This document shows positions 52,791 to 60,628 of a stretch of 64,000 nucleotides of DNA, one piece after another (positions within the stretch are counted from its first letter, which is position 1; the number at the start of each line of letters is the position of its first letter). The translations under genes were made by a program, and so were the position numbers. The DNA lies in assembly GCF_001644575.1 (NCBI RefSeq), contig NZ_CP015596.1:5146001-5210000 (forward strand), read 5' to 3'. The notes beneath the pieces were generated by a model. That model was not told the DNA's origin. It saw only the letters and a program-made list of their open reading frames with translations, and searched no databases. Source of the DNA: Mycobacterium adipatum (GTDB lineage: Bacteria; Actinomycetota; Actinomycetes; Mycobacteriales; Mycobacteriaceae).

Positions 52791-52809
52791 GTTGCATCAA
52801 GGTTGCAGA
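52791..52809. promoter_or_regulatory. GTTGCA-N5-GTTGCA operator 1 (dehydratase operon / FhuF-like gene)
   Basis: GTTGCATC at 52791-52798 and GTTGCAGA at 52802-52809, start-to-start 11 bases. It lies in the 200-base gap between the divergent dehydratase operon and FhuF-like gene, 102 bases from the former and 81 from the latter start codon. One of three such sites in this block. Confidence 0.6.
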
Positions 52810-52889
52810 GGCAAACAACCTGCCCGTTCGGCGAGGATCCGCGGCATCGGCGCGTCCGCCTCGGGGCGGGCGGTTACGGTGCAACCACC

Positions 52890-53627
52890 ATGACCGATAC
52901 GCCCGCACCCGTGCACCGTGGCGAGTGCGCCCGGTATCTGGACGAGTTGAGCACGCTGGGCGGATACTTCGCGCTGCCCGCCCACCCGGACGCCCAATCA
53001 CAGAGTCTTGCAGGACTTTTCGCCGACGATGTGGTCACCGACCACGTCGAGCGCACCCGCGACGCGATCGCCGCCTCGGTGGGCTGCCCTCCGGAGCGGA
53101 TCTCGCTGCGGATGGCGGCATCGTCGTTGCAGCTCGGTGTGGCCGCCCGGTTGCTCTCCCCGGCCATCGGCGGGGCGCTCTGCTTGGGAGCCGTTCCGGT
53201 GCTGGACCAGCGGTCGCTGCGCTGGGTCCCCGGCGCGGGCCACGCACCGCAGTTCACCGTCCCCGCCCCGGTGTGGCAGGCCGTCGATGCGCAGACATCC
53301 GCGCAGGTCATCGCCGAGTCGGTGGTCCCGGTCCTCACCGAGTTGGGCGCCAGACTGAACGCCCTGCTGTCACTGTCGCCACGAATCACGTCGGGCAATC
53401 TGACGTCGGCCGCCAACGGCGCGGTGACGGTGCTCGCGTTGTCACGCCCGGAGCAGGAGGCTCCCGGCCGGGCGCTGGTGCGCGCCCTGGCGAGCACCGA
53501 GCCGCTGCGCGGCACGGGCGAATTCGTCGACGGGCGATTCCGCCGGCGCAGTTGCTGCCTGTACTACCAGGCCCCGCGGGCCGGGCTGTGCGGTGACTGT
53601 GTGCTGATTCCGGACGCCACACCCTGA
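52890..53627 (+). CDS. FhuF-like (2Fe-2S)-binding protein
   Basis: 245 residues. The C-terminus carries Cys222-Cys223-x10-Cys234-x2-Cys237 (SCCLYYQAPRAGLCGDCVL), the [2Fe-2S] signature of FhuF-type ferric-siderophore reductases. The rest fits the FhuF domain loosely (ISLRMAASSLQLGVAARLLSPAIGGAL). In this setting it may serve redox or cobalt/cobalamin reduction rather than siderophores; that is inference. Ends 70 bases before the LuxR-like gene. Confidence 0.8.
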   Translation: MTDTPAPVHRGECARYLDELSTLGGYFALPAHPDAQSQSLAGLFADDVVTDHVERTRDAIAASVGCPPERISLRMAASSLQLGVAARLLSPAIGGALCLGAVPVLDQRSLRWVPGAGHAPQFTVPAPVWQAVDAQTSAQVIAESVVPVLTELGARLNALLSLSPRITSGNLTSAANGAVTVLALSRPEQEAPGRALVRALASTEPLRGTGEFVDGRFRRRSCCLYYQAPRAGLCGDCVLIPDATP

Positions 53628-53629
53628 AC

Positions 53630-53648
53630 GTTGCAACGTCGTTGCAAC
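53630..53648. promoter_or_regulatory. GTTGCA-N5-GTTGCA operator 2 (luxR-cysG)
   Basis: Two perfect GTTGCAAC palindromes at 53630-53637 and 53641-53648, 11 bases apart, 49 bases before the LuxR-like ATG. The most symmetric of the three sites. Confidence 0.65.
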
Positions 53649-53696
53649 GCTACGGGCGCTAACATTCGCCGCTCAGCAGCAGGACGGAGTTCGACC

Positions 53697-54433
53697 ATGG
53701 GCTGGACACAGACCCGCGACGCACCGACCCGGCGTGAGCACGACGTTGACGGCGTCGACAATTCCCTCGAAAGCCTGGACATCACAGCATCTTTCACCGC
53801 CACCGCGCCGATGCGCACGGTGTTCGTGCTGAACGACGAGCTGCTCCGGCACGGCCTCATCCACGTCGTCACCCAAGGCGGCGGCATCAGGTTGGTGGGT
53901 GATCTTGCGCACGGGCCCGGCCTCGCCGAACGGCTGCGGGTCTGGCAACCCGAGCTGTTGTTCGTCGGCGCCGAGGCGGTGGCCCAGCTGGCGACGCTGC
54001 TGGCCGAGCTGGACCCGGCGCCGAAGATCCTGGCTGTCATAGACGGTGACGACCCGCGCGAGCGTGCCATGCCGCTGATCCGCGCCGGCGCCGACGCGGT
54101 CATCGACCGGCGGTCATCGGCGGCGGACCTGCAGGACACGGTCGCGCGGGTGATCGAGGGCCACCGGGCGCTCGACGCCCGCAGCGCCGAAACCCTGATC
54201 GCCGAACTTCGCGAGCAGGACCGGCCCGCGCAATCCGGCACGCTGACCCGGCGTGAGCGCGAGGTGCTCGGGCTGCTCATCGAGGGACTCGACAATCGCG
54301 GGATCGCCGGCGCCCTGTTCATTTCGCAGGCCACCGTGAAATTTCACGTGCACAACATCAAGAGCAAGTTCGGCGTCCACACAGTCGCGCGGCCCTGGTC
54401 GCCGCCGTGTTGGGTGGGCGCCGGAATGCCTGA
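53697..54433 (+). pseudogene. LuxR-type regulator with degenerate receiver domain, apparent frameshift near its end
   Basis: ATG at 53697 with AGGACGGAG ahead. The N-terminal half has a receiver-like fold (MRTVFVLNDELLRHGL), but the phospho-acceptor Asp is missing (strand reads LLFVGAEA), so phosphorylation is unlikely. The C-terminal LuxR helix-turn-helix (LTRREREVLGLLIEGLDNRGIAGALF, then SQATVKFHVHNIKSKFGVH) is intact up to codon 54378. There the frame runs into the next gene; two bases fewer in CACACAG (54378-54384) would restore the normal LuxR ending SRAALVAAVLGGRRNA with a TGA at 54431. Either a real phase shift, programmed frameshifting or a sequence error. Confidence 0.75.
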
Positions 54434-58551: not shown

Positions 58552-58591
58552 CGCTGCTCCTAACGTCGAAAGGGGTAATACCGGGCCGGTC

Positions 58592-58990
58592 CTACGGTAG
58601 CTGGGCGGACCGCATCGATGTCGCGTGCGCCGGGACCACCCGGGCCAGCGAGATGAACCGCATACCTTCTGATTCCTCGAGGCTGAACCCGGTCCCGCGG
58701 CCGGGTTCCACGTCGATGACGAGTTGACTGTGTTCCCATGCCGGCATCTGCGGTCCCGACACCCACACCGGAACGCCGTAGCGCTGGCGCCCCGAGACGA
58801 CGTCGAGCATGCCCAGCAGGACATCACTGTCCTCGATCGAGAATTCGCCGACGGGATGACACATGAGCATGGGGCTCACACCAAAGCCGCCGGACTGGCG
58901 AAACATCAACGCGCCGTTCCGGTTTTGAAGATGCACTACCAGCCCAGCGGCAGCCCGGGTGATCAACACCCGGGCTGCCGGGGAGTCCAT
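58592..58990 (-). CDS. DUF779 family protein, without the usual cysteine pair
   Basis: 132 residues. The family, typically coded beside ThcA/ExaC-type aldehyde dehydrogenases, normally has an SGGCCDGSSPMC-like motif. Here the matching stretch reads [12 protein letters not shown]: both adjacent cysteines and the Asp are replaced. The rest (YPVGEF-like [44 protein letters not shown]) fits. It may have lost a metal- or thiol-dependent function. Lies between the aldehyde dehydrogenase and glpK. Confidence 0.85.
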
Positions 58991-59024
58991 CAGCTAGGCA
59001 ATCTCTTCCTCGCCCAAGCGCTCA

Positions 59025-60548
59025 TCAGAAGAACCCTTGTGCGTTGTTGCTGTAGCTGACCAGCAGGTTCTTGGTCTGCTGGTAGTGGTCGAGCATCATC
59101 TTGTGGTTCTCCCGGCCGATGCCGGACTGCTTGTAGCCACCGAACGCGGCGTGCGCCGGGTACTGGTGGTAGCAGTTCGTCCACACCCGGCCGGCCTTGA
59201 TGTCACGGCCGGCACGGTATGCGGTGTTGCCGTTGCGCGACCACACCCCGGCGCCGAGGCCGTACAGGGTGTCGTTGGCGATCTTGATCGCGTCGTCGTA
59301 GTCGGTGAAGGAGGTCACCGCCACGACCGGGCCGAAGATCTCCTCCTGGAAGATCCGCATGGCGTTGTGCCCGGTGAAGATCGTCGGGGCCACGTAGAAG
59401 CCACCGTTCAGATCGCCGCCGAGCTGCGCACGCTCGCCGCCGGTGACCACCTGGGCGCCTTCGTTCTTGCCGATTTCGATGTAGGACAGGATCTTCTCCA
59501 GCTGATCGTTGGAGGCCTGCGCACCGATCATCGTCTCGGTGTCCAGCGGGTCACCCTGGCGCACGGCCTTGGTGCGGATCGCCGCCATCGCCAGGAACTC
59601 GTCGTAGATGTCGGCGTGGACCAGGCTGCGTGACGGGCAGGTGCACACCTCACCCTGGTTGAGGGCGAACATGGTGAACCCCTCCAATGCCTTGTCCTGG
59701 TAGGCGTCGTTGGCGGCCAACACGTCACTGAAGAAGATGTTGGGGCTCTTACCGCCGAGCTCCAGGGTCACCGGGATGAGGTTCTGTGACGCGTACTGCA
59801 TGATCAACCGCCCGGTGGTGGTCTCCCCGGTGAAGGCGATCTTGGCGATCCGGTTGCTCGACGCCAGCGGCTTACCGGCCTCCACACCGAAGCCGTTGAC
59901 CACGTTGAGCACACCGGCGGGCAGCAGGTCGCCGATCAGCGAGACCAGATACAGGATCGAGGCGGGTGTCTGCTCGGCGGGCTTGAGCACCACCGCGTTA
60001 CCGGCCGCCAGCGCCGGTGCCAGCTTCCACACCGCCATCAGGATCGGGAAGTTCCACGGGATGATCTGTCCGACCACACCGAGCGGCTCGTGGAAGTGGT
60101 AGGCGACGGTGTCTTCGTCGACCTCCGACAGCGAGCCCTCCTGCGCACGGATGCAACCGGCGAAGTACCGGAAGTGGTCGACCGCGAGCGGGATGTCGGC
60201 GTTGAGCGTCTCGCGGATCGGTTTGCCGTTGTCCCACGATTCCGCCAGCGCGATGGATTCGAGGTTCTCCTCGATCCGGTCGGCGATCTTGTTCAGGATG
60301 ACCGCGCGTTCGGCGGCCGAGGTCTTGCCCCAGGCCGGCGCGGCGGCGTGCGCGGCATCGAGTGCCTTCTCGATATCGGACTCATCGGACCGGGCGATCT
60401 CGCAGAACACCTGGCCGGTGACCGGGGTGGGGTTCTCGAAGTAGCGGCCGGCGCTCGGCGCCACCCACTGCCCGCCGATGAAGTTGTCGTAACGGGGTTG
60501 GAACGACATCAGGGCGCCTTCGGCGCCCGGACGTGCATAAACAGTCAT
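59025..60548 (-). CDS. Aldehyde dehydrogenase (ThcA/ExaC type)
   Basis: 507 residues. Oxidises short aldehydes to acids with NAD+. PWNFP (164-168), cofactor loop [18 protein letters not shown] with general base Glu263, catalytic Cys302 in [11 protein letters not shown]. This GEVCTCPSR signature is that of acetaldehyde/EPTC-inducible dehydrogenases. It should remove acetaldehyde from ethanolamine and propanal or hydroxypropanal from the dehydratase. The ATG at 60548 follows GCAGGAGAAG. A GTTGCA-type operator lies 62 bases upstream. Confidence 0.95.
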
Positions 60549-60609
60549 GGCTTCTCCTGCGTTGTGACACCGTGGTGTGTCGGTCGTCACTAAATCTAGG
60601 TGCGCAGAG

Positions 60610-60628
60610 GTTGCATCACGGTTGCAAC
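60610..60628. promoter_or_regulatory. GTTGCA-N5-GTTGCA operator 3 (aldehyde dehydrogenase operon)
   Basis: GTTGCATC at 60610-60617 and GTTGCAAC at 60621-60628, 11 bases apart, 62 bases before the aldehyde dehydrogenase ATG and 43 bases past the stop of the GAF regulator gene. Confidence 0.65.

Follow-up and report, generated by a model that had tools for sequence, protein, structure and literature searches.

What do three paired hexamers in a diol- and aldehyde-catabolic block of the soil bacterium Mycobacterium adipatum mark, and which protein reads them? The stretch analysed here, called the window, comprises 64,000 nucleotides (nt) of contig NZ_CP015596.1 (positions 5,146,001 to 5,210,000, forward strand). 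The original prediction, made from its letters alone, held that GTTGCA-N5-GTTGCA pairs are the operators of a diol/aldehyde regulon, with a GAF-domain or a LuxR-like protein as the candidate binder. Our analysis argues that the GAF-domain protein encoded at 60671-61960 uses the three sites as its operators, acting as a SARP-type activator of an aldehyde regulon, a reading to which we assign a probability of roughly 0.85. The element is real and conserved and, by sequence comparison, looks functional, with this GAF-SARP protein as the best candidate for its binder.

Operator sites and promoter architecture

Exact copies of GTTGCA-N5-GTTGCA stand at 52791-52807 (GTTGCATCAAGGTTGCA), 53630-53646 (GTTGCAACGTCGTTGCA) and 60610-60626 (GTTGCATCACGGTTGCA), as had been claimed, and the window holds no further exact copy. 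From the nearer site end to the first base of the start codon, the distance is 102 nt for the dehydratase small subunit (ATG 52689), 49 nt for luxR (ATG 53697) and 62 nt for exaC (ATG 60548), in agreement with the predicted 49-102 bases ahead of transcription units. The genome-wide scan that the prediction called for found the motif to be rare: the 6.05 Mb of both contigs contain the exact pattern at four positions, namely the three window sites and G000:C1:5038815, returned as five rows since the palindromic 53630 site matches both strands. One-mismatch copies were rejected as operators, being background (20 rows in total versus 18 for a reversed control pattern); the 15 non-exact rows include the 60610 site read on the opposite strand. 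In the direction of transcription the element reads TGCAAC-N5-TGCAAC, followed 11 nt downstream by a -10-like hexamer:

60593..60626, minus strand: exaC operator with -10-like box (TGCAACCGTGATGCAAC, 11 nt, TAGATT; position weight matrix (PWM) score in the window 32.9)
53632..53665, plus strand: luxR-cobA operator with -10-like box (TGCAACGTCGTTGCAAC, 11 nt, TAACAT; PWM score 28.2)
52774..52807, minus strand: diol dehydratase operon operator (TGCAACCTTGATGCAAC, 11 nt, CGCAAT, which is CACAAT in 13 relatives; PWM score 10.4)

The PWM scan of the window revealed no further operators, for example none at eutP, the next score below 10.4 being 3.8. The strict form including TANNNT is found at three places in the genome: 53632, 60593-60626 (minus strand) and 5038815.

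Conservation of the element

For the comparison upstream of exaC, we combined 60 regulator neighbourhoods, hand-picked from the 116 family genomes, out of 151, that have a regulator match (E 1e-30), with 80 named loci from a regulator profile search, the best 80 of 553 confirmed. Of these, 121 loci, including the window, had an ExaC of more than 70% identity, its start and at least 150 nt upstream; removal of identical upstream regions left 114. TGCAAC-N5-TGCAAC with at most 2 of 12 mismatches precedes exaC in all 114 distinct promoters from these regulator-carrying loci (0, 1 and 2 mismatches in 71, 37 and 6), while single-base shuffles predict it in about 0.6 of 114. Among ten spacings tested, TANNNT follows at 11 nt in 103 promoters, at 10 nt in 10 (named examples being the Tsukamurella loci L245-L247) and at none in one. 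In the 103 aligned promoters both TGCAAC units are near invariant except for the first base.

The exaC operator extends well beyond the block, into other actinomycete genera: named genera that have the element with 11-nt spacing include Mycolicibacterium, Nocardia, Rhodococcus, Williamsia, Streptomyces, Nocardioides, Aeromicrobium and Cellulomonas. YGCAAC-N5-TGCAAC-N11-TANNNT occurs in 176 of 301 family genomes, with five reversed-control matches in total (summed by eye), and YGCAAC-N5-YGCAAC-N11-TANNNT in 35 of 101 genomes of the order, or 27 of 89 with the 12 genomes of the own family left out (control 0). Eight named exaC loci fail the stricter expression (L257, L259, L260, L261, L264, L277, L284, L288).

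The dehydratase small subunit was detected in 14 of 148 genus genomes (E 1e-40), each time with the repeat upstream (0-1 mismatch); at the -10 position, exactly 11 nt away, 13 have CACAAT and the own genome CGCAAT. Eight of the 14 stretches carry a second repeat in the opposite direction, with TANNNT at 11 nt, at the position of the luxR site of the window. Ahead of identified luxR matches the repeat is seen in M. vanbaalenii, M. palauense, M. yunnanensis and M. iranicum. LuxR itself looks like a target and not the binder. The rarity of the motif genome-wide and the conservation of all three sites ahead of orthologues support the proposal that one common operator marks a diol/aldehyde regulon; the fourth genomic site and the reach of the exaC operator into other genera are additions to it, not corrections.

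Which protein reads the repeats?

60671..61960, minus strand: GAF-SARP type regulator, proposed binder, 429 amino acids (GAF about 68-235; OmpR-type winged helix-turn-helix and BTAD-like helices 237-429)

For this protein Pfam gives only the GAF domain (E 1e-3) and NCBIfam only the DhaR model, below cut-off. DhaR-type regulators possess a sigma-54-type activator half with an AAA+ domain and a Fis-type helix-turn-helix. With these AcoR-like proteins the regulator shares the GAF sensor domain, while its C-terminal half is predicted to fold not as a sigma-54 AAA+ domain and Fis-type helix-turn-helix but as a SARP domain, an OmpR-type DNA-binding domain followed by BTAD. PMC10936776 describes SARPs as having the OmpR-type DNA-binding and BTA domains N-terminally, with extras behind, and as binding direct repeats 11 or 22 bp apart near the -10 box. 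The repeats seen here are of this kind, with the regulator as their putative binder, but its SARP half is C-terminal and its GAF domain N-terminal; because of this reversed order we describe it as SARP-like rather than as an ordinary SARP.

The GAF domain contains a cysteine, C173, found in 140 of 143 regulator sequences, which may act as an aldehyde-reactive switch. As a mark of exaC-linked regulators it proved weak: the three sequences lacking it come from loci with no exaC, but 16 other exaC-less loci keep it. In three loci of one genus (L134, L135, L139), second-type regulators have glycine at this position and no exaC, and a near-identical operator follows the matched end of the regulator gene itself after 9-54 nt.

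Among the 151 family genomes, the strict operator is found in 92 of 116 with the regulator versus 0 of 35 without it, a comparison that ignores the relatedness of the genomes. ExaC is present in 130 of the 151 (E 1e-250), 19 of them without a regulator match, and the repeat is absent from all 19 exaC promoters of these genomes (at best 3-6 of 12 positions mismatched); one more region, with a second aldehyde dehydrogenase copy in genome G112, was not counted and also lacks the operator. Six of the 19 belong to the same genus, with ExaC 83-90% identical. As presence and absence both occur within one genus, plain descent is unlikely as the sole cause of the association. The second exaC copy in G112 (L315), without operator, lies behind stretches matching the regulator at 33-35% identity; a paralogous system may use a different site there.

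Since operator and GAF gene co-occur, and since most operator loci show no LuxR match, we favour the GAF protein over the LuxR-like protein among the two candidates originally named. The strongest competitor, itself improbable, is another conserved factor that recognises the repeats and disappeared along with the GAF gene. The co-occurrence is a correlation, and gene neighbourhoods are shared; however, the operator is kept at exaC where the regulator is about 3-6 kb (L111-L113, L115) or about 16-20 kb away (G010, G040, G106, G143), and the SARP fold predicts sites of just this kind, according to PMC10936776. Binding by the LuxR-like protein at 53697 is very hard to sustain: it has a LuxR helix-turn-helix and its own gene follows one site, but the operator tracks the GAF gene (92/116 versus 0/35), and most operator loci have no LuxR match within a flank of about 9-10 kb, LuxR not having been searched genome-wide. 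An equally remote proposal is that a dimeric TetR- or GntR-like repressor binds the element as a palindrome. This reading was the first one tried. GTTGCA-N7-TGCAAC is exact at two of the three window sites and at only those two places genome-wide; the reading was dropped once the 103 aligned promoters showed only 0.01-0.20 bit at the three bases before the left TGCAAC, the conservation being confined to the two TGCAAC units, which argues for a direct repeat. Finally, a -35-type element of an alternative sigma factor would fit the -40 to -19 region that the repeat occupies, and AAC motifs are found at extracytoplasmic function (ECF) promoters, but the pairing of units at one helical turn, the TANNNT box of sigma-A type and the shared distribution with a predicted SARP-type regulator make this highly improbable.

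Further candidate targets and the genes of the block

The fourth site (L195 at 8001) has the correct spacing; the gene behind it matches the propionate--CoA ligase model best, at 771 bits where the cut-off is 955. Its start codon lies 7 nt behind the -10 box, and the transcript is therefore probably leaderless. We treat this prpE-like site as lineage-specific. At the prpE-like promoter of G407 (L336, 3370-3420) the element persists in diverged form, and the opposite strand there reads as a perfect repeat.

Behind further sites, with genes judged by eye, the operator precedes an ethanolamine permease in L198, L200 and L210 (tblastn agrees for L198 and L200), a DUF779-like gene alone, as a separate operator, in L205 and L208, and hydrolase-like genes in L176-L180, L207 and L209. 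A full operator with TANNNT precedes a valyl-tRNA synthetase-like gene in two genomes (L181, L211), outside the expected pathway; others precede an adenylation-type protein (L175, L213, L214) or an ATPase- or phage-like gene (L201), and L212 has no clear gene. Any sites that fall outside the pathway could be fortuitous or mark additional targets.

The block itself comprises:

59025..60548, minus strand: exaC, acetaldehyde dehydrogenase (NF050026, 968 bits, cut-off 900)
58592..58990, minus strand: DUF779 protein, behind exaC (family match)
57034..58674 (start approximate), minus strand: FGGY-family kinase, glycerol kinase-like, behind exaC-DUF779 (family match)
52261..52689, minus strand: diol dehydratase small subunit, first gene of the dehydratase operon (family match)
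50532..52187 (start approximate), minus strand: propanediol/glycerol dehydratase large subunit (family match)
49958..50530, minus strand: dehydratase medium subunit (family match)
48076..49941, minus strand: diol dehydratase reactivase alpha (family match)
53697..55541, plus strand: LuxR-type response-regulator-like domain reading through into uroporphyrinogen-III methyltransferase (cobA/cysG), candidate target gene(s)

It also encodes an MIP channel, an HbpS-like protein, an FhuF_C-like protein, an ethanolamine permease and EutB, the last called from its own sequence and its position behind the permease, not from the family scan. In the window the LuxR-like and CobA/CysG parts form one frame of 614 amino acids, whereas in relatives (L223, L230, L232, L243) luxR stops before cobA; the last stretch of the LuxR domain (54360-54440) looks out of frame, which may reflect a sequencing error or a real fusion.

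Proposed mechanism and its weak points

From the operator, its spacing and conservation, the co-occurrence and the predicted fold, we infer binding by the GAF-SARP protein, activation rather than repression, and the kind of inducer. Two protomers would sit side by side on the two TGCAAC direct repeats one helical turn apart, contacting DNA through their C-terminal SARP-type domains (OmpR-like winged helix-turn-helix and BTAD). Since the downstream end of the repeats lies close to the -10 box, the bound dimer would bring in sigma-A RNA polymerase where the -35 element is poor, in the manner of AfsR at afsS. Activation would be gated by the GAF domain, a relative of the one in DhaR, the most likely signal being an aldehyde or related metabolite. 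The putative regulon would both make and remove aldehydes, with ExaC and DUF779, a B12-dependent diol dehydratase with its reactivase and LuxR-CobA (cobalamin precursor) as members, joined by the propionate--CoA ligase-like enzyme in the own genome and the ethanolamine permease in some relatives.

Several observations weigh against this mechanism. The strict pattern is missing from 24 of the 116 regulator genomes, some of which have a 10-nt spacing or a variant first base; the 52791 site of the dehydratase operon has both repeats but misses TANNNT; and the prpE-like site shows the full architecture in just one of 30 genus loci (the own) and a diverged form in one more, 30 of 37 matches having loci. 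Operator and regulator gene adjoin in most loci, so that another factor could have been lost with them, and a second regulator match in the own genome (E 1e-30) might compete for the sites. The structure model of the whole protein is of no more than moderate quality (predicted local distance difference test, pLDDT, 70.9; predicted template modelling score, pTM, 0.50): stretches within GAF (128-173) fall below 50, while residues 241-429 reach 81-95 by block. The residue matching T88 of AfsR, one of two base contacts, is an alanine, as assigned by pattern. Lastly, the Mycobacterium smegmatis dehydratase MSMEG_1547 is expressed on all three carbon sources tested, according to PMC4881515, a pattern that does not by itself suggest tight induction.

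More tentatively, proteins with a GAF sensor ahead of the SARP half could form an undescribed, widespread class of actinomycete aldehyde sensors, with TGCAAC-N5-TGCAAC-N11-TANNNT as the operator that ties ExaC, diol dehydratase, ethanolamine uptake, cobalamin supply and propionate activation into one regulon. The pairing of operator and candidate activator recurs in other actinomycetes, Streptomyces included, and an operator so sharply defined allows the regulon to be traced in sequence. SARP proteins are mostly familiar as activators of antibiotic clusters; here, a SARP-type protein with a small-molecule sensor would be tied to primary aldehyde catabolism.

Comparison with known systems

A SARP-type activator on direct repeats is of a known kind; the domain order and catabolic role proposed here were not found in the open-access literature searched, a weak negative since subscription papers are not covered. 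Among the closest known systems is the SARP domain of AfsR at the afsS promoter of Streptomyces coelicolor, but AfsR has NOD and TPR domains, which the regulator lacks; moreover, the SARP half here is C-terminal behind GAF, the repeat sequence differs, and the targets serve aldehyde catabolism, not antibiotics. EmbR of Mycobacterium tuberculosis has an FHA domain in place of the GAF domain, and its targets differ. Relative to DhaR of E. coli, the sigma-54-type activator half is replaced by the SARP half.

MnoSR of M. smegmatis also controls alcohol and 1,3-propanediol oxidation, but is a two-component system that has a single palindromic target genome-wide, as described in PMC11303327. The same source, which names its RNA-seq data as PRJNA1121240, reports only eight genes changed in an mnoSR mutant under carbon limitation, with the exaC-like MSMEG_1543 and the dehydratase gene MSMEG_1546 dropping and no MnoR site found at either. 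The change in MSMEG_0733 is unexplained by a GAF-SARP activator, and we found no open-access paper naming the locus tags MSMEG_1541 or MSMEG_1542. None of the genomes examined was identified as M. smegmatis, and the link rests on the gene order of M. senegalense L217 (regulator, exaC, HbpS-like, FhuF-like, dehydratase small, large), which fits MSMEG_1542-1547, with MSMEG_1542 as the probable orthologue of the regulator, MSMEG_1547 as the dehydratase large subunit and MSMEG_1544 annotated PduO. If this order is shared, both changed genes would directly follow an operator. The GAF-SARP protein offers a concrete lead on the puzzling result that loss of MnoSR lowers an exaC-like gene and a propanediol dehydratase without a detectable MnoR site.
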